From the NCBI RefSeq assembly GCF_002161675.1, contig NZ_NFIH01000015.1, positions 1 to 64,000 of the forward strand: a stretch of 64,000 bases of DNA. Direction: 5' to 3'. Source of the stretch: Pseudoflavonifractor sp. An44. GTDB taxonomy: Bacteria > Bacillota > Clostridia > Oscillospirales > Oscillospiraceae. The position numbers and the translations under genes are program-made. Under the pieces are notes generated by a model, which saw only the letters and a list, made by a program, of their open reading frames with translations, did not search any database and had not been told where the DNA came from. Below are positions 4,757 through 24,999 of this stretch, one piece after another (position 1 is the stretch's first letter; the number at the start of each line of letters is the position of its first letter).

Positions 4757-4772
4757 GTTAGCCACCGCTAAC
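4757..4772. promoter_or_regulatory. Palindromic operator upstream of pflB
   Basis: GTTAGC-CACC-GCTAAC is a perfect 6+4+6 palindrome. It lies 10 bp downstream of the pflB -10 element, over the likely start of transcription, a place typical of repressor sites. Identical half sites recur in front of four other genes in the window. The binding protein is inferred to be the DtxR-like regulator encoded at 16878-17717. Confidence 0.75.
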
Positions 4773-4782
4773 CACAGGAAAT

Positions 4783-4812
4783 ACATTACCACATCGCATT
4801 ATAGATTGTCAA
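4783..4812 (-). promoter_or_regulatory. pflB promoter
   Basis: On the minus strand TTGACA (4807-4812) and TAATGT (4783-4788) are 18 bp apart. No other promoter-like pair is as good in the gap between pflB and the DUF454 gene. Confidence 0.6.
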
Positions 4813-4830
4813 GGCGTTGCACAGATGAAT

Positions 4831-5232
4831 TCATTTGACCCTACTATCTGATTTTGACACGATGGTTTTCACTCCAAAGACAAAGTAGATAACATGGCAC
4901 ACCCAGACAATGGCCAAAATAATACTGGGAATCACAATTCCACCTCGTAGCATCATAAAGATACCAACCCCCATCAGCAGGGTCACAGGCACCATGATGC
5001 CAACCTTTGTCTGTACTGTCATGCCCTTTTTCTTCACAAAGGAGTCCAGATGCTTTTGATAAAGCTGCGTCCCCACAAACCAGCTATGAAGTCTCTGGGA
5101 GCTTTTTGCAAAGCAGAATACGGTGACCAGGAAAAACGGCACTGTGGGCAGTATGGGCAGCACAACGCCAATGCACCCCAGCCCCAGACAGACACAGCCC
5201 AGCACCAGAAAAAACAGTCGTTTCACTTTCAT
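4831..5232 (-). CDS. DUF454 (YbaN-type) small membrane protein
   Basis: The 133-residue protein has about four hydrophobic segments and the family pattern GxxLPILPTVPFFL near residue 30, followed by CFAKSSQRLHSWF. The biochemical role of YbaN/DUF454 proteins is not known. The start at 5232 has GGGGAGG 6 bases upstream. It follows the haem ABC ATPase gene by only 21 bp and is the last gene of that operon before the pflB promoter, which suggests a part in haem or iron use. That link is inferred from position only. Confidence 0.85.
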   Translation of the reverse strand: MKVKRLFFLVLGCVCLGLGCIGVVLPILPTVPFFLVTVFCFAKSSQRLHSWFVGTQLYQKHLDSFVKKKGMTVQTKVGIMVPVTLLMGVGIFMMLRGGIVIPSIILAIVWVCHVIYFVFGVKTIVSKSDSRVK

Positions 5233-5253
5233 AGAAGGCCTCCCCTTTCCTCC

Positions 5254-6030
5254 CTACACCGGAATCACAAAGGGCTTTCCGTCCACGCTCTGGATGGTCA
5301 AGTCCACGTCATACACCTCTTTGACCAGTTCTCCGGTCAAAATGCACTCCGGTACCCCCTGAGCCATGATTTTTCCGCCCTTCATGGCCACAATTTCATC
5401 GCTGTAATAGAGGGACTGGTTGATGTCGTGGAGCACCATCACAATGGTAATGCCGTACTCCCGATTTAATTTTTGAATCAGTTTGAGGATTTGGAGCTGG
5501 TAGCGCACATCCAGATAGGTGGTGGGCTCGTCCAAAAAAAGCACCTTGGTATCCTGGGCCAGGGCCATGGCAATCCACACCCGCTGCTTCTGGCCGCCGG
5601 ACAGCTCTGCCACCGGCTTGTCCTTGTGTTTGACCGTGTGGGTGATCTCCAGAGCCCAGCGGATCTTCTCCTCGTCCTGCTGGGGGTCGCCGGACAGACC
5701 CAGGGTATGATAGGGGGTGCGACCATACCCCACCAGCTTCTCCACAGTCAGGTCTGGGGGTGCGGTGTTGTACTGGTGGACGATGGCCACCTCTTTGGCA
5801 AAGTCCTTCAGACGAAGATGGGCGATGTCCTGCCCCCGGAACTGGATTTCCCCCTGGTCTGGTTTCAGATTTTTGGTCATCAGGTTGAACAGGGTGGATT
5901 TGCCACAGCCATTAGCGCCAATCAGAGTGGTAATTTTCCCCTCACGGAGGGAAATGTCCAGTCCCTGGAGCACTTGGTGCTTTCCGTATGCAAAGGATAG
6001 GTTTTTGACGGTAAAAATATCACTGACCAT
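5254..6030 (-). CDS. Haem/iron ABC transporter ATP-binding protein
   Basis: This 258-residue ATPase of the FecE/HmuV type powers import through the FecCD-type permease next to it. Walker A is GANGCGKST near residue 37, the signature is LSGGQKQRVWIAMAL, and Walker B is LFLDEPTTYLD with the H-loop in VLHDINQS. It starts inside the end of the permease gene (11-bp overlap), which indicates translational coupling. The substrate is inferred to be haem from the IsdE-like, NEAT and Shp proteins in the same operon; an iron-siderophore substrate cannot be excluded. Confidence 0.92.
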   Translation of the reverse strand: MVSDIFTVKNLSFAYGKHQVLQGLDISLREGKITTLIGANGCGKSTLFNLMTKNLKPDQGEIQFRGQDIAHLRLKDFAKEVAIVHQYNTAPPDLTVEKLVGYGRTPYHTLGLSGDPQQDEEKIRWALEITHTVKHKDKPVAELSGGQKQRVWIAMALAQDTKVLFLDEPTTYLDVRYQLQILKLIQKLNREYGITIVMVLHDINQSLYYSDEIVAMKGGKIMAQGVPECILTGELVKEVYDVDLTIQSVDGKPFVIPV

Positions 6031-7012
6031 AGCTCTGTCTGGACCTCCTCAGCAAAATGATAAAGAACGGGCCACCCACCACAGACATGATCACCGATGC
6101 ACTGATCTCATAGGGTGCGGCAATGGTACGCCCCACCGTGTCAGCCAGCAGCAGGGTGAATGCTCCCAACAGGATGGTGTAGGGCACCAGAATTTTATGG
6201 TTGCTGCCCACCAGAAGCCGGGCAATGTGGGGGACAATCAAACCCAGGAAGCTGATGGGGCCGATGACAGCGGTAGCAATCCCCGCCAGCAACACGGCAA
6301 TGACTGAGATCATGATTCGGCTCCGATTCACATTGACCCCCAGGCTTCGGGCGGTTTTATCTTCCAGGGCCAGCAGGTTGCACTGCCCCAGCACAAAGAA
6401 CGAGGCAATCAGCCCCACCAACCCGTAGAGGAGCAGGGTTTGCAGGTCGCTCCATGTCTTCATGGTAATATTGGCGTTGACAATGCTGGCCACCCCGGAA
6501 TAGTTGCTTCCGGTGCCGGAGTTGAAGGCACTCATGAGGCCGGAGAACATGGCATTCACCGCCACGCCCACCAAAATGATACGCAGCGGGGACAGCCCGC
6601 CCTTCCAGGACAGGGAGTACACCAGGAAAAAGGCAAGCATCCCCCCCAGAAAGGCAAACAGCGGAGTAAAAAAGTAGAGTGCGGGGAAAAAGGCGGTGAT
6701 GAGCACCGCCACCAGGCTGGCACCGGAGCTGATGCCAATGATGCCGGGGTCCGCCAGCGGGTTTTTCAGCACCGCCTGCAGCAGCACGCCGGACACCGCC
6801 ATAACAGCTCCGCCGAACATGGCAATGAAAATACGGGGAAATCGCAAGTCAAAAATGGTGGCCACGTTTTCATTGTAGGCCACAAAGAGTCCTCGGAACA
6901 GCTCCACAGGGGTGACCTTCAAGCTGCCGGTGTTGACTGCAAAGAGAAACAGCCCAACCAGCAGCACAGCCGTTCCCACAAAAGAGCCGATGATCTTTTT
7001 TCGGCTGATCAA
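6020..7012 (-). CDS. FecCD-family haem/iron ABC transporter permease
   Basis: The protein has about nine or ten membrane helices and FecCD/BtuC hallmarks, including GGAVMAVSGVLLQAVLKNPLADP near residue 70 and a late LGLIVPHIARLL. It forms the membrane channel with the ATPase at 5254-6030. The frame opens with ATG 7033, but that codon lies within the AAGGAGGT ribosome site. I therefore prefer TTG 7012 as the start, 9 bases after the site, giving 330 residues. A strong stem-loop at 7050-7080 separates it from the giant surface-protein gene upstream. Confidence 0.92.
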   Translation of the reverse strand: MISRKKIIGSFVGTAVLLVGLFLFAVNTGSLKVTPVELFRGLFVAYNENVATIFDLRFPRIFIAMFGGAVMAVSGVLLQAVLKNPLADPGIIGISSGASLVAVLITAFFPALYFFTPLFAFLGGMLAFFLVYSLSWKGGLSPLRIILVGVAVNAMFSGLMSAFNSGTGSNYSGVASIVNANITMKTWSDLQTLLLYGLVGLIASFFVLGQCNLLALEDKTARSLGVNVNRSRIMISVIAVLLAGIATAVIGPISFLGLIVPHIARLLVGSNHKILVPYTILLGAFTLLLADTVGRTIAAPYEISASVIMSVVGGPFFIILLRRSRQSYGQ

Positions 7013-7049
7013 GACGAGTAGACCTCCTTCCATGAGATAAAGCAGGCAG

Positions 7050-7080
7050 GGCCGGGATGTCGAAGTACGGCATCCCGGCC
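7050..7080 (-). other. Stem-loop inside the haem operon
   Basis: GGCCGGGATG pairs perfectly with CATCCCGGCC. On the minus strand no T run follows, so it is more likely an mRNA-stabilising or processing element than a terminator. It may let the surface-protein message outlast the permease message. Confidence 0.55.
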
Positions 7081-7092
7081 TTTACTGTGGTA

Positions 7093-10000
7093 TCAGCCCT
7101 TGCGTTTACGGGCAGCGTATACGGTGCATCCTGCCAGAGCTAGGCCGCAGCTCATCATCACTCCCACCAGAGGAAGCAACTGGGCGGAATCTCCGGTCTG
7201 GGGGACGTCACCCACCTGAGCAGTGTTTTCCGCATCGGTGATGGTGCTGCCTTTTTCCACCAGTGCATAGGCTCCGGCAGATTTGGTTATGACCGTATAA
7301 TAGTCATCTCTCAAACTACCACGAACCAGCACTTTATTGTCCGTTGCCATGCGATACACAGCTACTTGTTGGTCCGCATATCCATTCGGAATGGGGAAAC
7401 CAATGGAGACCGTTCCATTGGGTACCACCTGCTCCCCATTGGCATCCACAAATTTCACCTGGTAGAGCTTGAACTTCTTCCCAACCTCCTGGAGAGCGTA
7501 GGCAGCGGAAGAATACTCGCTGCCGGAGGTTATGGGCGTAATCTCAAAGCCCACGCCTGCAGGGAACACTCCCTTGTCAGCCCAGACGGTGACACCGGTC
7601 TTCTCATCCGTATAATTCACAGCAGGAGACTGCTCCACCGGCTCTTCCGGCTGGAAGTCAGGGTCATCCTCCGTGGTCTTCTCCAGACTAGACCAGTCAA
7701 CTTTCATCAACACATCCTGATCACCAGTACCGGCGCTGATGGCCTCCATAATGGGCACGAAGACATGCAGGGGCACAAAGCCGTCCCGGTCAGCAATGGC
7801 GGTGGACACCAGGCGAATGCGCACCTGGTCGGGATATAGGTGGTTGGCATCGTTGTATTGGTCGATGACATCACTGCCGTCGGCATTCTTCTGTGTGGAG
7901 AGCACCTCGGCCAACACCAGATCTCCCTGGGGTCTGCCATACTGGCTGTACACATAGCCCTCATCGTAGTAGGACAGGGTGGACAGGTAGCCAAAGCGAT
8001 TATCAATGGCCATGCCCTTGAAGTCCAGGGTCACATAATAGACACCGTCTACCACTTCCAGCTTTACAGTGTGGTTGATGGCATTGTTGGACATGGACAG
8101 CTTGCTGCGGTCAGTCTGGTACATGTCCACCTTTACAGAATAGATGCCATCCTCCAGCACATCCTGATCCGGAGTTTCCCCGGTTCCGGTGCCGGAATAA
8201 ACCACAATGCGATGTTCTGCCTTGGTGCCAGTCACTGTCTTGACCAAACGGTAACGGCCTTCAGGGGTAATTCCCTCCTGCTGGAAGGTGCCGGAGCAAG
8301 CATCCTCATCCTGGCTGACCTGTGTGGTGCTGAGGGTGTACCAGGTGCCGTTGCGAAGCTCCTGTACATCGGTGCGCACGGTGAAGGCATCCACAGTACC
8401 GGTCTTATCTGTGAGAATGGAGCCCTTGATAGACTCTTGAGAGAAGTCGGGCAAATCCACAGCCTGGAACTTTAGCAGCTCCTCCACGGTGTCAATGGAG
8501 GTTTTGCCCAACACTTCTTGCAGCTTGTCTTCGATTTCCCAAGACACATAGCCGCCCTTGCACAAAGCCCAATAGTAATAATCGAAGGCGGACAACTGAG
8601 ACTGATAGCTCAAGGTGCCCTCCCCCACCTCCAGGGTGAGCCCCAGGTGATGCTTGGAGGGATATTCTCCTGCGGCCTCTTGAATGGTTGCAATCTGCTC
8701 CTGGGTAAAGCCGCTGAGATCACAGGTAGACAGGTCCACAGAGTTGTACTCAAAGGCGCTGGCAAATCCATAGCCTCCTTCCGCTACCTTGGCCAGCAAC
8801 GGAGTAGGCAGGGTACGCAAACTATTCTTAGACAGATCCAGAGAGGAGAGGGCGGGATTGGTCTCTACCAGACTGGCCGGGACCTCCTCCAGCAGGTTAT
8901 CGCTGAGATTCAGGGTCTCCAGGGCAAGCATCCCATCCAAATCGCTGCCCAACTGAGCAATATCATTTTGGTTGAGGTACAAGTCGGTAATGCCAGACAT
9001 CTGGTTGATCCCCTCAGGAACCTGGATGAGTTGGTTGTCGGTGAGAGACAGCCAGGTAAAGGTCTCCCGCTGAGGCAGTGCATTGGCGTTGAGCTTCACC
9101 AGCTGGTTGCGAGCCAGATACAGACCAGTGACATGTTCCATATCATCAAAGGCACCGGCAGCAATGGAGGAGATCCGGTTATTCTCCAAATCCAGAATGT
9201 ACTCGTCTTCCCCGGCACCTACCTGGCTGAGGCCGTCAAATAGTTTGTCGTTGATGACAGTAAGCAGGTTGCTGGCCAGCTTCATATCCTTCAGGGAGGA
9301 AAGCTGGGAGAAGGCATCGTCATCAATGGTGGAAATACAGTTGGCGGACAGGTTTAGGCTGGTGAGCTGGGTAAAGCCCAGGAACTCATCATGAATTTCA
9401 GAAATGCTGTTGCCGTTAAAGTTAATGCTTTCCAGGGACTTGTCCCCCAAATCAGCAAGCCATGAAATATCTTGAATCTTGAACGGATCAAAGACGCCGT
9501 AGGCGTTCATCAGGGTGCTGGAACTCAAATCCAGGCTCTTCCTACCTTCCGCAAATCGGAAGTCGTTGAGCTCTTGCGTGGTGACATAGCCATCTCCGTC
9601 CATGTCCAGACCAGTCACGGTCATCAGCGCCCGGTTGATAAGCTTAGCCTGGGTGAAGCCGGAGTTTTTGATCTGGAAGCCCTCAAAGCCCTCGGTGACG
9701 GTGGTGTCAAATACCAGCTTCACCTGGGTGTATCGATCATACATGCCGTTCATAGCCTCAGAGCCGCCCATAGCCTGTACATTGACTGCACCCACCATAT
9801 AACCACTGTCCAATGCGGAGATGGGCAAGGTGTACACAGCGGCTACCACTTTCCCGGAAGCGTCCGTCTCAGGGACACGGGAGCCGTCGGTGATGGCGCC
9901 CTTCCAGGTGCCATCACTGCTCTGAATGGCAAAGTCCAGCATGGAGTGAGCGAACACGGTGTTGTAAAAGGAGGCGGTGAGAGTACCGTCCTGGGCCACC

Positions 10001-11967
10001 TTGATTTCCACATAGGGATCAAAGAAGCCAGCCAGCATGGACTCAGTGACCCCATCGTCAATGCGGAAGGCTTGGAAGGTGGCGGTGTACGTCTGCCCCG
10101 GCTTCATTTCACTGGCAGAAATTTGCGCACCACCAGTTGCATCGGCAGACTGATCCTCTTGAGTCAAGGTAACTTCGTCGAGGTTGCTGGCATCCAGCAC
10201 CACGTGCTTGGTGCTGGAACCCTCCATCACTACGTCCAGGGCAATGGGCTGGGAAAGATCCCAAGTCTCAGAATCGAAGTTGAGCAGCATCTGCACGCCA
10301 TCATCAACCCGCTTGAGGGCAAAGCCGCCCACGCCGCCGTTATAGACAAACTTCTCCTCCCGGTCCCCCTGGGTAACCCGGACAAAATACTGAGGGCTGG
10401 ACATCTGGTCACTCCAAATGGCATCACCGTAACGGGTATCCTCAGTATTCAGGGTGAGGGTGGTGTATCCATCCTTGGGCTGGATCTCGGCACCGGTGAA
10501 CTGGCCCAGCAAACTCCAGGTGTAGGTAGCAGTAGCCTCAAAGCTACTTCCCATACCATCTTTTACTGCAATGGCTTTGACCGTGGTCGTCTGGTTAATG
10601 GTAAAGGGGCCAGTGTACTGGGTGCTCTCCTGGGTGGGTGTGGTGCCGTCCAGGGTGTAGTAGATGGTGGCATCCGGGGTATCACAGGTGATGGTCACCT
10701 CTGTCTCCTCATAAATAGAGCCTTCGTTGGGGGAGATGACCGGTGTGGCCACAGAGGCAGTCTGTTGGTGGGCAGTGTCCCACTGCACAGACAATGTGTA
10801 TGTGCCGTAAGTTCCATTACTCAGCTGATAAGTTCCGGAATAGTTCTGCTTTACACCATAATAGGGCAGTACAATGTTGGAAATGCCGCTGATGGTTTTA
10901 TATCCCACTTCTCCAGACGCGGGAACAATCTCCAAAGCTGTTAGGTCTTGTGGGTCGTCCGAATTCTCTACCTGATACATGCTCAGAGCAGAGACCTTGT
11001 TCCCCTGCCAATCCTGGAGATAGGTCAGTTTCATGGTCAGACTTCCATTCTGGTCTGCAGTGACCACAGCCTGAGTGTGTACATAGCTGGTCAGCTCCCA
11101 TTGAGGGTCGTCCACCGAGATGGTTACCGCATACTCTTGGCCAGGCACCAGTTCAGGCATGGTGGTACGGGTAAAGGTGGCAGAAGCTACAGCGCTGGGA
11201 TCATATTCACCCGGAACGTAGGCAATCGCCTTGACGGTGGTGGTTCTGGTTACTGTAAAGGGCTCGCTGTACACCTCTCCCGTCTGATAGCCGGAAGAAT
11301 AGGACGGGTCACTGCCGTCGGTGGTGTAGAGAATGGTTGCCCCCGGAGTGTCACAGGTAATGGTGACCTCCTGGGAGGTTTCAAAATCTGCTCCACTGGG
11401 GGTGATCTCCGGAACTGCTGCCTCAGGCAGCACCTGCTCCAGCGTGGACCAGTCCACCGTGAGCACCATGTCACTCTGGGTCTCGTTGTTGAGGGTCACA
11501 GTACCTGTGTACTCATTACTGTCCCAGTAGGGCAGCACAAATGTGGCTTCGCCACGAATGGTATAATATCCTTCCGTGAAGGACACCTCATTAAATTCCA
11601 GTGCAACAGGGTCGGTGCTATCCTTTTCATAAACCTGCACGCCAGTAACCCACTGGGTCTCCGATGTCTCATAGTCGTCTGCCCAGACGACCACTTCAGG
11701 GAACCGGAGCTCCAAGGTGGGATTGCCATCGGAATCTGTGGTCACAGTGGCCGTGCGCTGAAGATGGCTGTAGAAACTGCTGTTCCATCCGCCTTCCTCG
11801 TCAGGCTTGCGCATCTGGACATCCACCTGGTAAGTGGCATTGGTTTCAAATTCTGGAGTGGACGGAGAAGCCGCCCACACCGGAGGTGTGGCCAGGCCCA
11901 ACGTGAGGGCCGAAGCCAAGGACATGGCCAAGCCACGCTTGAACCACGTCTGTTTGGTTGTTGTCAT
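7093..11967 (-). CDS. Giant cell-wall NEAT-domain protein with leucine-rich repeats
   Basis: The 1624-residue surface protein probably captures haem or haemoproteins. A signal peptide occupies residues 1-33. A NEAT-like region (about 40-180) is followed by a chitobiase-C-terminal-like domain with repeated TPGATILYTTDGSDP, then a second NEAT-like and chitobiase-like pair to about 480 (TPDATIYYTLDGTTP). Further NEAT-like sequence runs to about 770, then a calcium-loop motif (DMDGDGYVTTQEL) and about ten leucine-rich repeats (roughly 800-1050). The best NEAT domain is at about 1250-1410, with SMSNNA where the haem-binding short helix lies. A sortase signal VPQTG (1588-1592), membrane helix and RKRKG tail end the protein. 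RBS GGGAGG precedes ATG 11967. Domain edges are by eye. Confidence 0.88.
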   Translation of the reverse strand: MTTTKQTWFKRGLAMSLASALTLGLATPPVWAASPSTPEFETNATYQVDVQMRKPDEEGGWNSSFYSHLQRTATVTTDSDGNPTLELRFPEVVVWADDYETSETQWVTGVQVYEKDSTDPVALEFNEVSFTEGYYTIRGEATFVLPYWDSNEYTGTVTLNNETQSDMVLTVDWSTLEQVLPEAAVPEITPSGADFETSQEVTITCDTPGATILYTTDGSDPSYSSGYQTGEVYSEPFTVTRTTTVKAIAYVPGEYDPSAVASATFTRTTMPELVPGQEYAVTISVDDPQWELTSYVHTQAVVTADQNGSLTMKLTYLQDWQGNKVSALSMYQVENSDDPQDLTALEIVPASGEVGYKTISGISNIVLPYYGVKQNYSGTYQLSNGTYGTYTLSVQWDTAHQQTASVATPVISPNEGSIYEETEVTITCDTPDATIYYTLDGTTPTQESTQYTGPFTINQTTTVKAIAVKDGMGSSFEATATYTWSLLGQFTGAEIQPKDGYTTLTLNTEDTRYGDAIWSDQMSSPQYFVRVTQGDREEKFVYNGGVGGFALKRVDDGVQMLLNFDSETWDLSQPIALDVVMEGSSTKHVVLDASNLDEVTLTQEDQSADATGGAQISASEMKPGQTYTATFQAFRIDDGVTESMLAGFFDPYVEIKVAQDGTLTASFYNTVFAHSMLDFAIQSSDGTWKGAITDGSRVPETDASGKVVAAVYTLPISALDSGYMVGAVNVQAMGGSEAMNGMYDRYTQVKLVFDTTVTEGFEGFQIKNSGFTQAKLINRALMTVTGLDMDGDGYVTTQELNDFRFAEGRKSLDLSSSTLMNAYGVFDPFKIQDISWLADLGDKSLESINFNGNSISEIHDEFLGFTQLTSLNLSANCISTIDDDAFSQLSSLKDMKLASNLLTVINDKLFDGLSQVGAGEDEYILDLENNRISSIAAGAFDDMEHVTGLYLARNQLVKLNANALPQRETFTWLSLTDNQLIQVPEGINQMSGITDLYLNQNDIAQLGSDLDGMLALETLNLSDNLLEEVPASLVETNPALSSLDLSKNSLRTLPTPLLAKVAEGGYGFASAFEYNSVDLSTCDLSGFTQEQIATIQEAAGEYPSKHHLGLTLEVGEGTLSYQSQLSAFDYYYWALCKGGYVSWEIEDKLQEVLGKTSIDTVEELLKFQAVDLPDFSQESIKGSILTDKTGTVDAFTVRTDVQELRNGTWYTLSTTQVSQDEDACSGTFQQEGITPEGRYRLVKTVTGTKAEHRIVVYSGTGTGETPDQDVLEDGIYSVKVDMYQTDRSKLSMSNNAINHTVKLEVVDGVYYVTLDFKGMAIDNRFGYLSTLSYYDEGYVYSQYGRPQGDLVLAEVLSTQKNADGSDVIDQYNDANHLYPDQVRIRLVSTAIADRDGFVPLHVFVPIMEAISAGTGDQDVLMKVDWSSLEKTTEDDPDFQPEEPVEQSPAVNYTDEKTGVTVWADKGVFPAGVGFEITPITSGSEYSSAAYALQEVGKKFKLYQVKFVDANGEQVVPNGTVSIGFPIPNGYADQQVAVYRMATDNKVLVRGSLRDDYYTVITKSAGAYALVEKGSTITDAENTAQVGDVPQTGDSAQLLPLVGVMMSCGLALAGCTVYAARKRKG

Positions 11968-11980: not shown

Positions 11981-12886
11981 TTATGGATTTTGCTTTATTC
12001 CCTCGCCGTAGAGCAGCGGCTGCAGCTCTTCCAGCGCATCGGGGTAGTTGAACTTGGCACTCATGCCGAACAGGTCATAGGGCAAGTCGTAGACACGCCC
12101 CTCCTGCACCGCCTCAAAGTGCTTCCAGATATCGTTGGTTTCAAATTCATCCTGGAACATCTCCACCACGTCTTCGGGCAGAGCATGGGCTGCCCGGAGA
12201 ATGATATCTGGTTCCTTGGTCTTCATGTCCTCGGTGTTGGCGGTGAGGAATTCCTGGCCGTCCCCATCTCCATAGACGTTGACCCCACCGGCCAGTTTGA
12301 CCAGGTTGCCCACATAGCTACTTTCCGTGGCCACAATGTAGGAGCCAGGCAGACCCATGAGCACCAGCACCGTGGGGGATTCTTTCCCCTCATTTTGGCT
12401 TCGGTACTCCTCCATAAACTGCTGGTATTCCTCCACCAGAGCCTGGGCCTGTTCCTCCCGGTCAAACTTCTCCCCCAGTCCCTCGATGGAGGCATACATT
12501 CCCTCCACGCTGCGCAGATTGAGAAACAGGGAGTTGACTTCAATGGAGGCATATTTGGGCTGCAAATCGCTTTGCAGGCTGTTGGGGGAAATCACATAGT
12601 CCGGGTTCAAAGATTTGAGAATTTCCAAATCCGGACTCATAGCCGTCCCTACAGTGGTCACATCCTGATATCGTTCGGGAATGGTACTCAGAGTGGAGGA
12701 GCACACACCCACCAGATCCAGTTCCAGCTTGTCGCAGATGTCCACCGCAGCGGGTGAGGTTGCTACAATACGTACCTGGTCTGAACCGTCATCTGCAGTC
12801 TGCTCCGGATGTTGGTTGACACAGCCGATGGCGGACAGGGCCAGCATTCCCGCCAAGCAGAGAGACAGAAGTCTTCTTGGTTTCAT
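11981..12886 (-). CDS. Haem ABC transporter substrate-binding lipoprotein (IsdE-like)
   Basis: The 301-residue protein has a lipoprotein signal with the lipid-bearing Cys22 in SAIGC. It shows the two-lobed fold of class III binding proteins (VRIVATSPAAVDICDKLEL, later LVLMGLPGSYIVATESSYVGNLVKLAGG). That second block resembles IsdE of the Staphylococcus haem system, so it likely receives haem from the NEAT and Shp proteins and delivers it to the permease. RBS GGAAGGAG precedes ATG 12886. It sits between the Shp-type gene and the giant NEAT gene. Haem specificity is inferred from similarity and neighbours. Confidence 0.9.
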   Translation of the reverse strand: MKPRRLLSLCLAGMLALSAIGCVNQHPEQTADDGSDQVRIVATSPAAVDICDKLELDLVGVCSSTLSTIPERYQDVTTVGTAMSPDLEILKSLNPDYVISPNSLQSDLQPKYASIEVNSLFLNLRSVEGMYASIEGLGEKFDREEQAQALVEEYQQFMEEYRSQNEGKESPTVLVLMGLPGSYIVATESSYVGNLVKLAGGVNVYGDGDGQEFLTANTEDMKTKEPDIILRAAHALPEDVVEMFQDEFETNDIWKHFEAVQEGRVYDLPYDLFGMSAKFNYPDALEELQPLLYGEGIKQNP

Positions 12887-12901: not shown

Positions 12902-13804
12902 TCACTTCTTACCAAAGGGATGCTTGCCCTTTCTTACAAAGAAGACGTACCACACGCCGCCGCCCACAGCTGCGATGACCACCAGCCCTCCAATGACCCA
13001 CCAGAGAACGGGAGAGCCGGAGGAGGAGTCGGTGTTTTCAGGAGCCTGGGTTTCCTCCACAGCGTTGCCCGAGGCGTCAAATTCCTCCAGGCCGCTGGCA
13101 CTGGACTGGGCCTCTGGGTCTGTAGTGGGAGACGGCTCCGGGGTAGCGGAAGGTACAGCTGTAGCCTCAGACGCAGGCGATTGTGTCGTCACCGGGGTCT
13201 TGGCGGGCGCAGGCGTGGATGCCACCGGAGCCTTGGTGGGCACCGGGGTTGCTGCAGGGGCAGGGGTCGGTTTGGGCTGTTCCACCGAGATGCTGGTAAC
13301 AAAATCCCCAGAACCGGACTTCAGATTGCCCACGGTAATGTAAAAGATGACCTCACGGCCCATGGGGGTCACATACATATTGCAGCGGATGATAGATTTC
13401 TCGCTGTTGGCTCTCAAGCGAAAATCTGCAGTATTGCTGCCATAGTCTTCTTGCATCAGACTGGCAGAAACGGAATGTCCATCCACCTGAAACTTGGGTG
13501 ATTGAATGTTGTCCATTAGATTTAAGCGAACGGTGATCCATGTGTTACCACTTGCATCTACCTCTACCAGAGCCTTTTTATTGGTAGCACTTTCTGTCAT
13601 GGACTGACCTAGTACTGCAGAATTCTCTCCGCCAGAGTCTTCGATGACTCCTGTGGTTGGATGCCGGTAGTGGGCGGTAGCGGTGGCAGTATATATGCCG
13701 TGGGAAGCTGCCGATGCAGGCATGGAAACAATGCTCGCCGCAAGGGCGAGCATTGCCACCATACCGCAAAGCCCTCGAACAGCTTTTCTCGCGGTATTCT
13801 TCAT
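12902..13804 (-). CDS. Shp-type haem-binding surface protein
   Basis: The 300-residue protein has a signal peptide (about 1-33), then one beta-rich domain of about 140 residues. It begins YTATATAHYRHPTTG and contains LVEVDASGNTWITVRL, resembling the haem-binding domain of streptococcal Shp, a NEAT-related fold. A Pro/Thr/Ala-rich linker (about 175-255) spans the wall, and a single membrane helix near 265-290 is followed by a basic tail. There is no sortase motif, so it is membrane-anchored. In Streptococcus, Shp passes haem to the ABC lipoprotein; here the IsdE-like gene follows by 15 bp, fitting that relay. Confidence 0.82.
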   Translation of the reverse strand: MKNTARKAVRGLCGMVAMLALAASIVSMPASAASHGIYTATATAHYRHPTTGVIEDSGGENSAVLGQSMTESATNKKALVEVDASGNTWITVRLNLMDNIQSPKFQVDGHSVSASLMQEDYGSNTADFRLRANSEKSIIRCNMYVTPMGREVIFYITVGNLKSGSGDFVTSISVEQPKPTPAPAATPVPTKAPVASTPAPAKTPVTTQSPASEATAVPSATPEPSPTTDPEAQSSASGLEEFDASGNAVEETQAPENTDSSSGSPVLWWVIGGLVVIAAVGGGVWYVFFVRKGKHPFGKK

Positions 13805-16414: not shown

Positions 16415-16458
16415 AGAAGCAACCCCTCTCTTTCCTAAGAAAAAACTGACGATCTCTT

Positions 16459-16481
16459 GTTAGCAATCGCTAACCACTATA
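16459..16481 (-). promoter_or_regulatory. Haem operon -10 element and palindromic operator
   Basis: The palindrome GTTAGC-AATC-GCTAAC is at 16459-16474, and a TATAGT -10 on the minus strand is at 16476-16481, one base upstream. No good -35 is visible. A weaker copy, ATTAGC-CGAA-ACTAAC, lies at 16593-16608. The rest of 16482-16877 holds no gene that I can support. Confidence 0.7.
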
Positions 16482-16877
16482 CAAAAAGAAAGCCGCTGAC
16501 ACGGCAATTCGGGATCAAACCACCTCCTATTTCTATTCACATGATACAGCACCTTCCACCTTAGGTATGTTAGACTGTTCACCAGGCAATCGATTAGCCG
16601 AAACTAACTGCCAGGCCAAAAAATAACTCCACAAGGAGCCGGATTTCGTCGATCTGTAAATCGCCATATATATTCTTCTCTTTGGACCTCAAACATTTCC
16701 TAAAGCACGCATAGTATATCCATTGTTTCCAGTGTAGTCAATGAATATTTTGTTGCACTTCTGCTACAAACCTATCTTTTCCCCATTAGAAAACGCCTGA
16801 AATCCTTTAGCCACAAAGAAATCAAGATTGGAGCAACTGTGCAACAGAAAATTTCTATCTTTCGGGCAACACCGTGT

Positions 16878-17717
16878 TTAATGGATGAACACAGTGAATA
16901 CTGCTGTACTCTCTGGCATATGCATTTCCCCCACACTGCACTGCATCTTCAGGCACACGCTCCCATGAAGCAACGTGTCACGACCTTTCCCCATAGAGAT
17001 AAACTGTAGCGCAGTTGCTGGGAAATATATGTAGCGTCCGTCCATTCCACCGTCCCGAAATTCCCCGTCGCATAGATATTGCAGCTTCTGAATCCGTCCC
17101 TCCATCTGTTTCCCGCTGGATATAGACTGAGCGGACACCGTTTTGATGGTCAGATATACCAATCCCTGGTGATCCTTTACCATCAGCTCGCAGGGATGCT
17201 CGAAACCTTGATTTGCCATAGAGATATTGCTGTGATTTTTCATCTGCTCTCGATAGATGATAAACGGAAAGTGGTAGCTTCCGTCTTCCAGAAGGTCACA
17301 AATTTCGCCGCCATGAAATCGTTGACGGCCTGTAAAGTGTTCTTTGATTTCCATACGGCTCTCCTGTTCGGAGAGCCGATCCATAAATGCGTCAGAAAAC
17401 CCCGCTGCCAGCCCCTGCAGCGCATTTTCTCGAATTTGACTTAATGGGACATCTAGGTACTGCATATATCGATGAAAAACACAGAATTTACGTCTGTATT
17501 GCTCCGCCAGCTTGATTCCAGGTACGGTGAGGGCCGTTTTGCGGTGTTCCAGCCGTTCTACAATTCCCTGTTTCTCCATGGCATCCATGGCACGGGTAAT
17601 GGCCCATTTCCCTACCCCCAGGCTTCTGGCAGAATCGGTGACCGTACGCTTGGACGGCTCTGCCTCCAGATAGTACAGCAACAGCTGAATTTGAAATGGC
17701 GTCAATGCTTCTGACAT
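16878..17717 (-). CDS. DtxR-like winged-helix regulator with a novel C-terminal domain
   Basis: Residues 1-70 form a winged helix (recognition helix near 36-47, SLGVGKWAITRAMD; wing near 58-66). Residues 75-115 (RRKFCVFHRYMQYL, then AGFSDAFMDRL) have the spacing of the DtxR/MntR dimerisation helices. Residues normally used as metal ligands seem replaced: the ACRWEH region of DtxR reads ALQGLA. The C-terminal 160 residues match no domain I recognise. The gene has its own TTGACA/TATAGT promoter with the GTTAGC-N4-GCTAAC palindrome 10 bp downstream, so it probably represses itself. It lies beside the haem operon and is the best candidate regulator for all copies of that palindrome. Family placement is by eye. 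Confidence 0.7.
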   Translation of the reverse strand: MSEALTPFQIQLLLYYLEAEPSKRTVTDSARSLGVGKWAITRAMDAMEKQGIVERLEHRKTALTVPGIKLAEQYRRKFCVFHRYMQYLDVPLSQIRENALQGLAAGFSDAFMDRLSEQESRMEIKEHFTGRQRFHGGEICDLLEDGSYHFPFIIYREQMKNHSNISMANQGFEHPCELMVKDHQGLVYLTIKTVSAQSISSGKQMEGRIQKLQYLCDGEFRDGGMDGRYIYFPATALQFISMGKGRDTLLHGSVCLKMQCSVGEMHMPESTAVFTVFIH

Positions 17718-17798: not shown

Positions 17799-17814
17799 GT
17801 TAGCTTATGCTAAC
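17799..17814. promoter_or_regulatory. Palindromic operator upstream of the DtxR-like gene
   Basis: GTTAGC-TTAT-GCTAAC, perfect half sites, lies 10 bp after the -10 element of the regulator promoter. This fits autoregulation. Confidence 0.75.
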
Positions 17815-17982: not shown

Positions 17983-19737
17983 TTATGAGCCTGCCCGATT
18001 CAACTGCCACAGAGCACTTTCGTTCTGAAGCTCCACCATGTGTCGGAACAGGCCACCTTCTTCCATCAGCTCTTGCGGGGTTCCCTGTTGGTCCACACAA
18101 CCGTCTTTCAGAACAACAATATGGTCTGCCCCGGCCACAGTACGCATCCGGTGGGCGATGACCAGTACCGTCTTTCCGGTGAGAAGCTTCGAGAGCGCCC
18201 CCTGTACCTTGGTCTCATTTTCCACGTCCAGAGAGGCGGTGGCTTCGTCCAGCAATACGATGGGCGCGTCTTTGAGCAGCGCACGGGCGATGGAGATGCG
18301 CTGTCGCTCGCCGCCGGATAGCTTTGCGCCGTTTTCTCCGATGGGCGTTTGGTAGCTCTGGGGCAGTTTGCTGACAAACTCCTCGCAATTGGCGGCTTTG
18401 GCTGCGGCCATCACCTCCGCGTCAGAGGCGCCGCGCCTGCCCAGGCGGATGTTTTCCATCACCGTGTCGTCAAACAGCACCACATCCTGAAAAACCATGG
18501 AATAATCGGTCAGCAGCACCTCTGGGTCCACCGTGGCAATATCCACCCCGCCCACTTTGATGGCGCCCCCGGTGACATCCCACAGACGCGCCGCAAGCCG
18601 GGCGCAGGTACTTTTACCGGAGCCAGAAGGACCGACCAGTGCAGTGATCTCGCCTTCTTTGGCGGTAAAACTGACATCGTGCAGGACGCCCTTTTGGTCA
18701 TAGGCAAACTCCACATGGTCAAAGACGATGTCGTGTCCCTTGGGCTGAAAAACTTCCGCCCCCTCTGCGATAGGCGTGTCGAACAGAGCGTTCATCCGGT
18801 CTGCCGACACCTGGGAGACAAATAGCTCGGCGATCAGAGCAAGGCTCTGGTCAAAGGGGGCATAGATACGGGTAATGACCATGAGGAACAGGAACAGCAG
18901 CATGAAGTCGATCTGTCCGGACAGGATCAGCCCCGCGCCCGTAAGGATCGTGGTCGCCACGCCCAGCCGCATGATGACGCTGGCTCCGTTGACGAACAGG
19001 CCGGTAACCAGCTCGCCGCGGATCATGATCCGTTCATGGTCGTCGATCTTCCGGTACAGCCCCGCAAGATAACGCTCCTCCTGATTGGTGGCACGGATCT
19101 CCCGCACATGTTCCAGCGCCTCCTGCATCCCATCTGAAACCCGCACGGCGGCGTGCTTGGTCTGCTCAGCCCGGCGCTCGGTGAGCTTCCGGCTTCCAAA
19201 CAGCAGGCCAAACGCGACCGGAACTCCCCAAAGACAGGCAATGGTCAGCCGCCAGTCATACCAGAGCAGGCAGACCGCAATCACGGCGGTGGAAATGTAG
19301 GAGCCGTACAGGTAGCCCAGCACATGGCTCCAGACATGTTCCATGCGGTTGACATCACCCATCAGGGTCTCCGTCAGGTCGGCCAGATCCCGCTTACCGA
19401 AAAAGCCGAGGGGCAGCTTGCGCAGCCGTTCCGCCAAACCCAGCCGGGTGGCTTTGACTTCGCCGTACACAAGACCGTAAGTGGCCTTATACTGCTGGAA
19501 ATGGGTGAGAAAAGAGAGAAGCGCAAACACCACAAGACCGGCCAGTACAGGCAGAGAGGCGGTCAAGGAGGCACTGTCGGTCAGAGATGCCATCAGGCCG
19601 GACATCACAAGGTACAGGATGCTGACCCCGCCCATGACCACCAGATTGACGACCACCGTCCAAAAGGTGCCCTTTTTGGTATTCTGTACGCCCTGATCCG
19701 TCAGGGCATATTTCCGTTGAAATTTTGCTCCGAACAT
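17983..19737 (-). CDS. ABC transporter, fused permease/ATPase (IrtB/YbtQ-like)
   Basis: The 584-residue half-transporter has an N-terminal six-helix membrane domain (about 1-320) and a C-terminal ATPase with GPSGSGKST, LSGGERQRISIARAL and VLLDEATASLD. It directly follows the upstream ABC gene (next base), so the two likely form a heterodimer. Fused pairs of this kind include IrtAB and YbtPQ, which import metal-siderophore complexes although built like exporters. The operator before the pair and the nearby ZIP and haem genes favour metal import, but drug or peptide export remains possible. Confidence 0.88.
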   Translation of the reverse strand: MFGAKFQRKYALTDQGVQNTKKGTFWTVVVNLVVMGGVSILYLVMSGLMASLTDSASLTASLPVLAGLVVFALLSFLTHFQQYKATYGLVYGEVKATRLGLAERLRKLPLGFFGKRDLADLTETLMGDVNRMEHVWSHVLGYLYGSYISTAVIAVCLLWYDWRLTIACLWGVPVAFGLLFGSRKLTERRAEQTKHAAVRVSDGMQEALEHVREIRATNQEERYLAGLYRKIDDHERIMIRGELVTGLFVNGASVIMRLGVATTILTGAGLILSGQIDFMLLFLFLMVITRIYAPFDQSLALIAELFVSQVSADRMNALFDTPIAEGAEVFQPKGHDIVFDHVEFAYDQKGVLHDVSFTAKEGEITALVGPSGSGKSTCARLAARLWDVTGGAIKVGGVDIATVDPEVLLTDYSMVFQDVVLFDDTVMENIRLGRRGASDAEVMAAAKAANCEEFVSKLPQSYQTPIGENGAKLSGGERQRISIARALLKDAPIVLLDEATASLDVENETKVQGALSKLLTGKTVLVIAHRMRTVAGADHIVVLKDGCVDQQGTPQELMEEGGLFRHMVELQNESALWQLNRAGS

Positions 19738-21540
19738 TTATTTTCCCTCCTTGCCGCTTTCCATTTTCCATTGGATCGCCCGATTGTAGTCGGCCCACAT
19801 CCGGGTGTACAATCCGCCTGCCGCAATCAGCTCCCCGTGGGCGCCCTGCTCTGTCACCCGGCCACCCTCCAGCACCAGGATCTTATCCGCGCCCACCACG
19901 GTGGAGAGTCGGTGGGCGATCATAATGACGGTGCGGTCCTTTGTCAGCCGAGCGAAGGCTTTCTGGATCAAGGCTTCATTTTCCGGATCCGCGAAAGCGG
20001 TGGCTTCATCCAGCACCACAATAGAGGCATCCTTCAAAATGGCCCGTGCCAGCGCAATGCGCTGCGCCTCGCCGCCGGAAAGATAGGTCCCCTCGGTTCC
20101 GATCACAGTATCCAGCCCTTGAGGCAGCTTTTCCAGAATGTCGCCGCACTGGGCGGCCTCCAGGGCGGCCAGCACCTGCTCCCGGCTGGCATTGGGACGG
20201 GCCGCCCGAACATTTTCCAGAATGCTGGCCTTGAACAGGCGGTTGTTTTGAAACACAAAAGCGACCTGATCCATCAGCACATGGGGATCGATCTGGCGTA
20301 CATCCACGCCGCCCACTTCCACGGCACCGGTGTCCACGTCCCAAAACCGGGGAATTAGACTGGCGGCGGTGGTCTTGCCCCCGCCTGAAGGCCCCACTAG
20401 CGCCACGGTCTCTCCGGGCTCGGCGGTGAAGGAGACCTGGGACAGGGCGGGAGACTGCGCGCCGTCGTAGGTAAAGCTCACATCCCGGAATACCACCCGG
20501 TTGTCCCTGGGAGTCTGGGGATGATTCGGCACCGGCAGCATCGGTGCGTCCATGACCGGCTGGATACGCCCCAGAGCGGTGTTGGCCAGCATCATACCGG
20601 AAGCCGCAAACATAATCTTGGCCAGTGCCGTGGAAATGATGGCAGAGAATACGGCGTAGAAGGCGAAGTTTGTGACAAGTCCCGCAAAATCACCCGAAGC
20701 CAGTGCGCCGGGAGCCAGGAACAGCACCACCGGAACCAGAAACAGAAAGGCGCCCTCGGTGAAGGTCAGATTGATGGACTGCGGAACGCGGCACACATCA
20801 CCTTGATAGTACTCCGCCTTAGCGCTGTACTCCTCAATGGCCTGCTGAAAGGCCTTGAAGGAGTAGACGGTCTGCTGAAAAATTTTGACCACCGGGATGC
20901 CGCGCACATACTCGGTGCCGGATTTGGTCATGCGGTCCTGAGCCGCCTGGTATTCCGCCATAAGCTCGGCGTTTTTGCCGCCCATCATACTGAACATGGC
21001 AAGGATGGAGATCACCGCTGACAGCAGGCATGCCGCACCCATACGCCAATCAAACACGAACATCAGCACCAGCATGGCAAGAAACAGGGTGATTGTGCCC
21101 ACGATGTCCGCCAGATTGTGAGCCAGCAGGGTTTCTGTATCGGCGGCCGCTGCGTCCAGGCGGCTGCGGATCAAACCGGAAGCATTGGCATCAAAATAGC
21201 CCAACGGAGCCTGCATCACATGTGCCATGCCCTGTTTGCGGATGTTGGACGCCGTGCGGAACGCCGCCAGATGGGTGCACATCAGACCCAGGAAGTAGAT
21301 GAGGATGCCGCCCACCGCGAAAGCAAAGGCGATCCAGCCATAGCGCGTCACGCTCTGGGCCTGCGTCCAATCCGGCGCCACGGCAATCAAATCTCGGGCC
21401 GCCAGCCAGATACAGAGATAGGGAATCATACTGCACACCATGGATATTGCTGACAGTCCCAGCCCCAGGAAGGTAAGCCGCCTGTGGCTGCCCGCATATC
21501 CCAGCAGAACGGTCAGAGCGTTTTGCTTCTTTTCCTTCAC
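19738..21540 (-). CDS. ABC transporter, fused permease/ATPase (IrtA/YbtP-like)
   Basis: The 600-residue partner of the next gene has a six-helix domain (about 20-310) and an ATPase with GPSGGGKTT, LSGGEAQRIALARAI and VLDEATAFADPEN. The start is GTG 21540 with AAGGAGG 8 bases upstream. A perfect GTTAGC-N4-GCTAAC palindrome lies 20 bp before the start, between the ribosome site and the TetR terminator. This places the pair in the same regulon as the haem genes. No siderophore synthetase is present in the window, so the ligand is unknown. Confidence 0.88.
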   Translation of the reverse strand: MKEKKQNALTVLLGYAGSHRRLTFLGLGLSAISMVCSMIPYLCIWLAARDLIAVAPDWTQAQSVTRYGWIAFAFAVGGILIYFLGLMCTHLAAFRTASNIRKQGMAHVMQAPLGYFDANASGLIRSRLDAAAADTETLLAHNLADIVGTITLFLAMLVLMFVFDWRMGAACLLSAVISILAMFSMMGGKNAELMAEYQAAQDRMTKSGTEYVRGIPVVKIFQQTVYSFKAFQQAIEEYSAKAEYYQGDVCRVPQSINLTFTEGAFLFLVPVVLFLAPGALASGDFAGLVTNFAFYAVFSAIISTALAKIMFAASGMMLANTALGRIQPVMDAPMLPVPNHPQTPRDNRVVFRDVSFTYDGAQSPALSQVSFTAEPGETVALVGPSGGGKTTAASLIPRFWDVDTGAVEVGGVDVRQIDPHVLMDQVAFVFQNNRLFKASILENVRAARPNASREQVLAALEAAQCGDILEKLPQGLDTVIGTEGTYLSGGEAQRIALARAILKDASIVVLDEATAFADPENEALIQKAFARLTKDRTVIMIAHRLSTVVGADKILVLEGGRVTEQGAHGELIAAGGLYTRMWADYNRAIQWKMESGKEGK

Positions 21541-21559
21541 AAATATTCCTCCTTTTATG

Positions 21560-21575
21560 GTTAGCTATCGCTAAC
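21560..21575. promoter_or_regulatory. Palindromic operator upstream of the ABC pair
   Basis: GTTAGC-TATC-GCTAAC with perfect half sites. No strong promoter is visible between the TetR terminator and this site; TACACA just upstream is a poor -10 candidate. Confidence 0.7.
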
Positions 21576-21585
21576 CTTTTGTGTA

Positions 21586-21606
21586 AAAAGAAAGGGGCAA
21601 AGCCCC
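21586..21606 (-). terminator. Terminator after the TetR gene
   Basis: GGGGCTTTGCCCC on the minus strand forms a short stem followed by TTTCTTTTT, just after the TetR stop codon. Confidence 0.6.
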
Positions 21607-21633
21607 GATCTTACGAAAAAGATTGGCGGTATG

Positions 21634-22251
21634 TTACTGGCCGATCAGCTGCAACCACCCGGCAGTGTAGAAATCCCGCAGCTGGTCCACATACCGCATG
21701 GCCTGCTCCTTGGGCATGTCGTGGACGACGATCTCGAAAATGCCGTTAAACATTCCGCTGGCAATGATGTGGCATAGCTGTGCATCCAGCTGGGGGCATT
21801 CATGCCCCAGACGGTGGAGTACCTCCAGGTATTGGAGGGTGTATTCCACTTCGACCTCCACCATATTATGGACGAAATGCTCATAGCTGGTGCCCTCGGC
21901 CTTGCACAGCAGCAGCTTCACCGGCTCTCGGTGGTCGCAGATGTAGTCCACCATCCAATGGACGCATTGGCTGGACTCCAGTCCCATGTGTTCCGGCTGT
22001 TCCTGCTCCGGCAGCTCGGCAAAGGAGGTCTGGGCTTCCATGAACCGGCCCATCAGCGCAGCGGCGTGGGGCTCCACGATGGATGCAAAGAGCGCCTCTT
22101 TGCTGGAGAAATAGCCGTAAAATGCGCCGGTGGTGACACCAGCCTGCTTCACAATCTGCCGCAGAGAGGCACCCTGAAAGCCCTTCTCTGTAAATTCCTC
22201 CATAGCGGCCTGCTGGATTCTCTCCAGCGTGGCAGTCGATTTTTCTTCCAT
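21634..22251 (-). CDS. TetR-family transcriptional regulator
   Basis: The 205-residue protein has a TetR DNA-binding domain at about residues 8-55 (AAMEEFTEKGFQGASLRQIV, then GAFYGYFSSKEALF) and an all-helical ligand domain. I prefer ATG 22251 because GAGGT lies 5 bases upstream; the earlier ATG at 22263 overlaps that site and the operator. A long inverted repeat sits immediately upstream, so the gene is probably self-regulated. It lies between the methyltransferase and the ABC pair and may control either. Its ligand is unknown. Confidence 0.9.
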   Translation of the reverse strand: MEEKSTATLERIQQAAMEEFTEKGFQGASLRQIVKQAGVTTGAFYGYFSSKEALFASIVEPHAAALMGRFMEAQTSFAELPEQEQPEHMGLESSQCVHWMVDYICDHREPVKLLLCKAEGTSYEHFVHNMVEVEVEYTLQYLEVLHRLGHECPQLDAQLCHIIASGMFNGIFEIVVHDMPKEQAMRYVDQLRDFYTAGWLQLIGQ

Positions 22252-24313: not shown

Positions 24314-24390
24314 ATTTTCACTTTTACTTGCGCTTATATGACTCATGTATCATCAAAAAACGACCCATCAAGAAAAGTCGAGCGTAAAAA

Positions 24391-24603
24391 TCATGAATCA
24401 GTAATAGCATCCATTCGGCATAAATCAGATATTTCATCCGGTCTGTTGTCATGATTTTGATGATGTTTTCCGCAACAGTGGTGCCCACCGTGCCCGCCGC
24501 AGCAACAATGGCCATTGGGGTTGAAGGGATCAAAATGCAGTAAATCAACTTTCTCGACGGAAACCTTAGTATTCATGACGTTGGTATTCTTGTGTTCCAG
24601 CAT
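24391..24603 (-). CDS. Small Cys/His-rich peptide, putative metal binding
   Basis: The 70-residue product has no family I recognise. Residues 32-51 hold five Cys and seven His in a glycine-rich block (HCCCGGHGGHHCCGKHH), a clear metal-ligand cluster. GAAGGAGTG stands 5 bases before ATG 24603. The promoter is near ideal (TTGACA, 17 bp, TAGAAT), with the regulon palindrome 8 bp after it. It could be a metal store or chaperone, or the precursor of a modified peptide, given the methyltransferase and ABC genes downstream. An overlapping frame at 24324-24548 is probably spurious. Confidence 0.72.
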   Translation of the reverse strand: MLEHKNTNVMNTKVSVEKVDLLHFDPFNPNGHCCCGGHGGHHCCGKHHQNHDNRPDEISDLCRMDAITDS

Positions 24604-24669
24604 AAAAACACTCCTTCATTGTAGTTTGTATTATTTGTGTTCCGAGAATGATCAGAACATAGAACGCTT

Positions 24670-24691
24670 GCAGTTAGCTATTGCTAACTGC
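24670..24691. promoter_or_regulatory. Palindromic operator upstream of the Cys/His peptide gene
   Basis: The core GTTAGC-TATT-GCTAAC is at 24673-24688, and the symmetry extends by three bases on each side (GCA and TGC). It lies 8 bp after the -10 element. Confidence 0.75.
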
Positions 24692-24696
24692 ATTGA

Positions 24697-24725
24697 ATTC
24701 TACCACACGACTCTATCCATGTCAA
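24697..24725 (-). promoter_or_regulatory. Promoter of the Cys/His peptide gene
   Basis: Minus strand TTGACA (24720-24725) and TAGAAT (24697-24702) with a 17-bp spacer. Confidence 0.7.
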
Positions 24726-24769
24726 TCATAAGACCATTTGCATAGCGAAATCTTACCTTCTCCATGGGA

Positions 24770-24907
24770 TTAAATTTTTTGGCCACCGTCCTTGCCACCA
24801 CCGATGTATTAAGGCCGGTTGTGGGAGCGCTGGTACATAATGCGGGTTCCGTCCTGGTCATTATCAACTCGGCGCTTCTCCTTGGCTGGAAGCAAAACTC
24901 GCTATGA
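24770..24907 (+). pseudogene. Heavy-metal P-type ATPase, C-terminal remnant
   Basis: About 45 residues in one plus-strand frame read LNFLATVLATTDVLRP, then VVGALVHNAGSVLVIINSALLL, ending at TGA 24907. This is the last membrane helix pair of P1B-type metal ATPases (the HNxxSVLVxxNSxRLL pattern). Everything upstream, including the ATP-binding and phosphorylation domains, is gone. The fragment overlaps the promoter zone of the Cys/His peptide gene. It is probably the relic of a metal pump linked to the AraC and DUF6110 genes that follow. Confidence 0.65.
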
Positions 24908-24951
24908 CAAATATGATTCCATCTCCTCTGTTCCCTGTATTCAGAAAATTC

Positions 24952-24999
24952 TTGCATCTTGTCGTATTATGATGTATCATCCAGTTAGTGTGCGCTAAC
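24952..24999 (+). promoter_or_regulatory. Promoter and operator of the AraC/DUF6110 locus
   Basis: TTGCAT (24952-24957) and TATCAT (24975-24980) are 17 bp apart, and 3 bp later comes GTTAGT-GTGC-GCTAAC (24984-24999), one mismatch from the regulon palindrome. Confidence 0.6.

Follow-up and report, generated by a model that had tools for sequence, protein, structure and literature searches.

The window analysed here, a 64,000-nucleotide stretch of Pseudoflavonifractor sp. An44 (contig NZ_NFIH01000015.1), carries repeated copies of the palindrome GTTAGC-N4-GCTAAC upstream of pflB, a haem operon, a gene for a protein combining a DtxR-like with a NEAT-like domain (the DtxR-NEAT protein, P0001), a pair of ABC half-transporters and genes for a small Cys/His-rich peptide and a DUF6110 protein. 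The initial annotation had read these copies as a metal/haem regulon, and this reading is well supported, also beyond the home genome, by the enrichment of the box and by its iron and haem targets. Perfect copies were confirmed at 4757, 16459, 17799, 21560, and 24673 and a one-mismatch copy at 24984, and the identities proposed for pflB, the haem operon, the ABC pair, the Cys/His peptide, and DUF6110 agreed with ours. An additional two-mismatch copy at 16593, which had not been named, is conserved in relatives. At up to three mismatches, the window held 12 matches against a shuffle mean of 15.66; there was thus no excess, and the signal in the window is confined to near-perfect copies. The boxes are listed below, followed by the genes.

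4757..4772, unstranded: perfect box upstream of pflB; also before pflB in the same-genus genome G145 (L094)
16459..16474, unstranded: perfect box, proximal site of the haem operon; GTTAG...CTAAC core in 5/5 aligned sequences
16593..16608, unstranded: two-mismatch box, distal site of the haem operon; GTTAG...TAA core in 5/5 aligned sequences
17799..17814, unstranded: perfect box upstream of the DtxR-NEAT gene; also in G145 (L095)
21560..21575, unstranded: perfect box upstream of the ABC pair; also in G145 (L095)
24673..24688, unstranded: perfect box upstream of the Cys/His peptide gene; also in G145 (L095)
24984..24999, unstranded: one-mismatch box upstream of the AraC/DUF6110 genes; one-mismatch also in G145 (L095)

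1558..2376, minus strand: radical SAM protein, probable pyruvate formate-lyase (PFL)-activating enzyme, a role suggested by its position
2411..4663, minus strand: pflB, formate C-acetyltransferase (TIGR01255, above the curated cut-off)
4831..5232, minus strand: DUF454 protein
5254..6030, minus strand: ABC ATPase
6020..7033, minus strand: FecCD-type permease
7093..11967, minus strand: 1624-aa protein with leucine-rich repeat (LRR) and NEAT domains
11981..12886, minus strand: Peripla_BP_2 binding protein, probably for haem, judging from its neighbours
12902..13804, minus strand: Shp-type haem-binding protein
13823..16414, minus strand: NEAT/FIVAR protein, gene 1 of the haem operon
16878..17717, minus strand: DtxR-NEAT protein (P0001), candidate haem sensor; DtxR-like winged helix and dimerisation helices, C-terminal NEAT-like domain
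17983..19737, minus strand: ABC exporter-like half-transporter
19738..21540, minus strand: ABC exporter-like half-transporter; 79% identical relative in G104
24391..24603, minus strand: 70-aa Cys/His-rich peptide; no NCBIfam family
25036..25973, plus strand: AraC-type regulator, open frames in two registers
26149..26421, plus strand: DUF6110 protein

Recurrence of the box in the genome, family, and class

Across the 2.75 Mb home genome, 13 perfect and 5 one-mismatch sites (18 in all) were detected, compared with no perfect site and one match at up to one mismatch for the reversed-pattern control. When the search was extended to relatives, as the initial annotation had proposed, the motif proved to be conserved and enriched over the control in both family and class. 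A perfect box was present in 91 of 200 family genomes (209 sites versus 9 control sites) and in 81 of 291 class genomes (184 versus 14); these site counts and the class genome list were entered by hand for the tallies.

We then looked at the genes behind loci retrieved by the motif only, using the best-listed ones (29 from the family and 30 from the class) and 38 reference genes chosen beside the home-genome sites and their neighbours, a set that includes rpoC and common ABC proteins. A reference-gene start lay at most 400 bp downstream in 15/29 family and 11/30 class loci, and the commonest genes were those for DUF3793, DtxR, and Feo proteins. The same measure at window positions 27000-63900 gave 0/3690, a control that represents one stretch of one genome. 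Copies inside coding regions would have spoken against a regulon; judged against the 38 reference genes only, none of the motif loci (0/29 and 0/30) fell inside one.

The targets elsewhere in the home genome were as follows.

C9:2930: one-mismatch box between feoA and dtxR
C9:4816: one-mismatch box before a methyltransferase gene
C10: pair of perfect boxes at a distance of 25 bp, before a DUF3793 gene and after rpoC
C13: CydD/CydC pair with DUF454, preceded by one perfect and one one-mismatch box (33 bp apart)
C32: box before a FecCD, FecCD, ATPase, binding-protein operon
C49: box before a membrane protein gene
C4: one-mismatch box before a second feoA and a gene for a FeoB G-domain protein
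C1: box about 200 bp before an ABC pair

On C13, the CydC protein scored above its NCBIfam cut-off and CydD slightly below (418 versus 435 bits). The membrane protein on C49, whose start was assumed to be the ATG at L021:5477 with a TTG start set aside, is presumably ferric-reductase-like; it had no Pfam match, and its MamZ score was 25.4 bits against a cut-off of 650. Behind the second feoA, L022:3959-4573 encodes a FeoB G-domain-only protein with a Cys-rich tail at its end. No gene is assigned to a pair of perfect boxes at the end of contig C9; a similar pair lies between the DUF3793 gene and dtxR in G022, G143, and G182.

Within the window, the boxed 70-aa peptide (24391-24603) has a CCCGGHGGHHCCGKHH stretch and is possibly metal-binding. 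The AraC-type regulator is split between open reading frames 24988-25359 and 25266-25973, whereas its paralogue on C32 (L020:8142-9059) is a single 306-aa frame; the two registers reflect either decay or a sequencing error.

Promoter context and architecture of the box

Promoter elements were judged for 15 gene rows with our own simple scoring of -35 and -10 hexamers. A recognisable -10 element just before the site had been claimed for five cases in the window. This was true for the DtxR-NEAT gene (box at 17799) and the Cys/His peptide gene, both of which have a perfect TTGACA, a 17-bp gap, and a 5-of-6 -10 element ending 8-10 bp before the site. It was partly true for pflB, where TTGACA is present and the -10 element is only 3- or 4-of-6, and for the AraC gene, where the -10 element is 5-of-6 and the -35 element only 3- or 4-of-6; by the same hexamer scoring, no convincing promoter was seen beside the boxes of the haem operon and the ABC pair. 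Including these two good cases, five of the 15 rows (feoA, the DtxR-NEAT gene, the Cys/His peptide gene, C49, and C1) combine TTGACA with a 5-of-6 -10 element at a 17- or 18-bp gap, and there the -10 element ends 8-9 or 10 bp before the box, which is the place for a repressor.

Boxes within window positions 21541-21640 and 16415-16540 and within L020:5317-5450 lie behind a hairpin and U-run, 17-53 nt before the start codon, and no promoter is visible in between. The hairpin and U-run may represent either attenuation or the terminator of the preceding gene. Inspection by eye of the interval between the DtxR-NEAT gene and the haem genes (16415-16877) revealed a terminator-like hairpin, then the distal GTTAG...TAA site, then the proximal site, a layout kept in five genomes (the window, G145, G481, G385, and UBA1375). 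Two sites in one haem promoter region leave room for two regulators.

The consensus of 94 distinct perfect sites extends the palindrome by one purine/pyrimidine on each side, with 83% purine at -1. Among 47 pairs of sites within 120 bp of each other (at most one mismatch), 22 had a start-to-start distance of 33-36 bp. In the one-mismatch sites of the loci, the inner base was altered 40 times in the gene-proximal half and 12 times in the distal half. The half sites do resemble the TTAG/CTAA of DtxR-type boxes, as had been noted; the accompanying remark that the spacing differs fails, because N4 is the geometry of one-dimer DtxR-family sites according to two papers (PMC10317159, PMC9861239). The Bacillus subtilis mntH oligonucleotide in the latter contains TTTGCC-TTAA-GGAAAC, which has the same spacing when divided into halves by our own parsing (PMC9861239).

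A DtxR-family protein as the probable reader

Judging from sequence comparisons, the reader of the box is most likely the FeoAB-linked DtxR protein encoded on C9 (P0002, 131 aa). It matches PF01325 with 48.1 bits (cut-off 26) and PF02742 with 51 bits (cut-off 27), and these matches stop at residue 123 of 131, so that the C-terminal SH3-like domain of IdeR/DtxR is absent. It also falls below the NCBIfam MntR cut-offs (78.8 versus 153 and 70.3 versus 138 bits). In the alignment, the ligand set M-E-H-C-E-H occupies MntR positions 8, 11, 77, 99, 102, and 103, with Met and Cys at the positions of MntR Asp8 and Glu99; these are DtxR iron-type ligands. Site 2 of DtxR consists of M10/C102/E105/H106, as given in PMC2628430.

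The box is linked to such genes. A single DtxR gene was taken from each of 94 genomes. Allowing one mismatch, a box occurred no more than 400 bp upstream of 33 of these genes, compared with 0/94 for the control pattern. These genes came mostly from the top of a match list covering 177 of 200 genomes, and the sample therefore leans to relatives of the C9 protein. By ligand class, boxes were found at 26/57 genes with M-E-H-C-E-H, 2/20 with N-E-H-C-E-H, 4/15 with D-E-H-C-E-H, 1/1 with D-V-H-C-E-H, and 0/1 unaligned; the Met-type set thus had 26/57 against 7/37 without it (p=0.009). In the class, a perfect box was present in 63/171 genomes with a DtxR-like match, defined as a match to the DtxR-NEAT profile at E <=1e-10, against 18/120 without one (p=3.5e-5).

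Several observations weigh against this assignment or against the regulon itself. The control pattern likewise leans to DtxR-positive class genomes (11/171 versus 3/120), and splitting the genes by the recognition-helix motif PSVSRA did not separate them by upstream box (19/53 versus 14/41). No reference-gene start was found within 400 bp of 14/29 family and 19/30 class motif loci, and a recognisable promoter directly precedes the box in only 5/15 gene rows, the rest being weaker or lacking. Some box-bearing genomes also appear to be without a suitable protein. DtxR matches were missing from 23 of the 200 family genomes, and at least five of these (G060, G072, G124, G144, and G149, among the 20 that are named) belong to the 91 with boxes. 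PF02742 was not matched in G060, G072, and G144, all with perfect boxes; PF01325 matched below cut-off in the first two and not at all in G144. G065, with six perfect sites, has only a divergent DtxR protein without the ligands; this protein (L199:4070-4396) adjoins feoB.

A further difficulty is G145, which has nine perfect sites and three DtxR proteins, two Asp-type and one Asn-type. No Met-type DtxR was seen there; unless the assembly lacks one that the genome has, the boxes cannot be read by the Met-type protein alone. G145, together with the upstream boxes at 7/37 non-Met genes, favours a DtxR-family reader that is mainly the Asn-type paralogue (C51 at home) or several paralogues acting jointly. 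We regard this as possible but doubtful, since boxes precede only 2/20 Asn-type genes versus 26/57 Met-type genes, and only 12 perfect sites occur in the 20 Asn-type genomes versus 116 in the 57 Met-type genomes. Because G145 and the box-bearing genomes lacking DtxR weigh against the C9 type, support is stronger for the family to which the reader belongs than for the particular protein.

The DtxR-NEAT protein

The protein at 16878-17717 had been proposed as the regulator that binds the box. Its DtxR-like fold was borne out, whereas its role as likely reader was not, since it is rarely found in box-bearing genomes. Pfam gave weak MarR-like and NEAT matches to P0001, both below cut-off; for NEAT, P0001 scored 22.4 against a gathering score of 32.8 bits and was the best of the 8/9 family members that matched at E <=0.1. 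A profile of P0001 and eight relatives was more informative: positions within 13-120 matched MntR at 3.7e-13 and IdeR/DtxR at 2e-10 to 1e-8, and positions within 135-218 matched NEAT domains, the best at 3.7e-6 (4myp). The alignment (A2) omits L277 (97% copy), L284 (duplicate of L150), and L285 (broken frame). A structure predicted from nine sequences had a mean predicted local distance difference test (pLDDT) score of 82.4, and Foldseek matched it to the NEAT domains of IsdX2, Hbp2, and IsdX1 as well as to DtxR/MntR; an earlier model from four sequences averaged only 65.2 and was set aside. The C-terminus aligned with IsdX2 NEAT5 (4h8q) at 3.6e-6, with a template-modelling (TM) score of 0.67 by target length.

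The metal ligand set is kept in 0/9 DtxR-NEAT proteins, two of which retain the Glu11 position only. Met167 and Met267 are invariant in 9/9. In the model, Met167 belongs to helix 167-170 and Met267 to the loop that precedes the last strand, positions where the pocket residues of a NEAT domain would lie. Against this, the model is weak at both residues, which are in or beside stretches with pLDDT <50 (160-165 and 263-267). In PMC12796733, NEAT1 and NEAT2 of Shr are described as ligating haem by two methionines, and its authors say the same of Shp. NEAT domains are described as surface-displayed or secreted in the abstract of PMC7815599. P0001 showed no signal peptide by eye and is thus probably cytoplasmic.

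Relatives were found at nine loci in records named Pseudoflavonifractor, Eubacterium, Ruminiclostridium, Lachnospiraceae, Ruminococcaceae, Egerieimonas, and Oscillospiraceae. Six lie beside genes for NEAT, Shp, or haem-binding proteins, and two beside CydDC-like genes with none of those haem genes; L279 has neither kind of neighbour within its 0.7 kb of downstream DNA. Full-length matches occurred in 4/291 class genomes, the home genome included. In the family, 10/200 genomes matched P0001 at E <=0.001, and the matches covered most of its length only in G000, G145, G047, and G015.

These features suggest that P0001 is a metal-blind DtxR fold fused to a cytoplasmic NEAT domain that would ligate haem by two methionines, a one-component haem sensor placed under iron control by the DtxR repressor and setting haem uptake by haem supply; we consider this proposal about evenly balanced. 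Neither a NEAT-type or NEAT-DtxR regulator nor, likewise, GTTAGC-N4-GCTAAC is described in the titles and abstract openings listed by searches of open-licence literature, where eight papers contain GTTAGC, DtxR, and iron, several of them on Corynebacterium. A paper on NEAT domains (PMC4143258) makes no mention of transcription, regulator, cytoplasm, intracellular, winged helix, or DNA-binding.

That the DtxR-NEAT protein itself reads the box, which would make the set a haem regulon, agrees with its DtxR fold, with the boxes at its own promoter and the haem operon, and with a box of at most one mismatch at 5/9 loci of relatives. It is nevertheless unlikely. Among the 91 box-bearing family genomes, most-length matches occur only in G000, G145, and G047; G015 has a relative yet no perfect box, and the same-genus genome G066 has four perfect boxes yet no protein match. 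The recognition-helix stretch appears by eye unlike that of DtxR proteins, and elsewhere the commonest boxed reference genes are those for DUF3793, DtxR, and Feo proteins, not haem genes. As it goes undetected in most of the 91 genomes, the protein was rejected as the sole reader.

Readings outside the DtxR family

That iron genes are controlled through the box by an unrelated regulator (Fur, TetR, or CRP/FNR type) is improbable. The home genome does have one Fur-family protein above cut-off, and TetR genes adjoin some ABC pairs, but the half site resembles the DtxR-type TTAG/CTAA with the same spacing, boxes cluster upstream of DtxR genes, and Fur was not found in the box-bearing genomes G060, G144, and G065; no search was made for CRP/FNR proteins. 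Least credible of all is that the palindrome acts as an RNA hairpin in leaders (6-bp stem, 4-nt loop): the stem is present in the predicted fold of some leaders and the -1/+16 pair is complementary in 77/157 sites (57 expected, 95% range 46-68, related sites left in), but 57/82 one-mismatch sites, oriented by the downstream gene in a tally where many loci were retrieved for their DtxR genes, break the RNA pair in the transcription sense, with C.A mismatches (29) no rarer than G.U wobbles (25). One box sits between the divergent feoA and dtxR, and a scan of window 1-30000 gave no Rfam match at or above the gathering score. This reading was rejected, and recognition as DNA stands.

Proposed model

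Judged from sequence evidence, the probability is roughly three in four that an iron repressor of the DtxR superfamily uses GTTAGC-N4-GCTAAC as an operator that is widespread in Clostridia, with the DtxR-NEAT protein as a second regulator in the regulon. When ferrous iron, the metal suggested by the ligands, is plentiful, a metal-bound dimer (most likely of the C9 protein, possibly also of the C51 paralogue) would occupy the boxes, which are single or in tandem about 34 bp apart and start 8-10 bp after the -10 element where a good promoter is visible, and initiation would be blocked. When iron is scarce, the boxes would be vacated and the ferrous-iron, haem, and siderophore-type uptake systems and ABC transporters made, together with pyruvate formate-lyase as a putative iron-sparing enzyme. 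The DtxR-NEAT protein, itself freed by the lack of iron, would then report haem; with no metal ligand set left and a NEAT domain attached, it probably adjusts haem uptake in response to haem. Iron and haem signals would thus be layered through two members of one fold.

If this model is true, a 16-bp word marks iron promoters in many Clostridia (perfect copies in 81/291 class genomes), and regulons could be read from sequence, including uncharacterised members such as DUF3793, DUF6110, DUF454, and the Cys/His peptide. The box at pflB points to a shift in pyruvate breakdown with the iron supply of these fermenters. If the DtxR-NEAT protein binds haem, it would be a case of a cell-surface haem-carrier domain put to use inside the cell as a sensor, and of a metal sensor converted to haem sensing through the loss of one site and the gain of a domain.

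Comparison with known systems

The proposed system resembles the DtxR/IdeR iron regulons (TTAGGTTAGSCTAACCTAA) in its TTAG/CTAA half sites, the 4-bp spacer of a one-dimer site, Met/Cys/Glu/His metal site, iron and haem uptake targets, and box near the promoter. In contrast, its halves are GTTAGC rather than TTAGG and form a simple 16-bp palindrome, and its regulator is a 131-aa protein of Clostridia without the SH3-like domain. With B. subtilis MntR it shares a short two-domain protein and 6-bp halves with N4 spacing, and the best solved-structure match of P0002 was MntR 1on2, which is titled a D8M mutant. Unlike MntR, however, P0002 has Met and Cys in place of Asp8 and Glu99, iron-type targets, and scores below the NCBIfam MntR cut-offs. 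The P0001 NEAT-like sandwich, with an invariant Met in the SM helix and another before the last strand, resembles the bis-methionine NEAT domains of Shr, whereas its fusion to a DtxR-like DNA-binding domain and its probable location in the cytoplasm set it apart from them.

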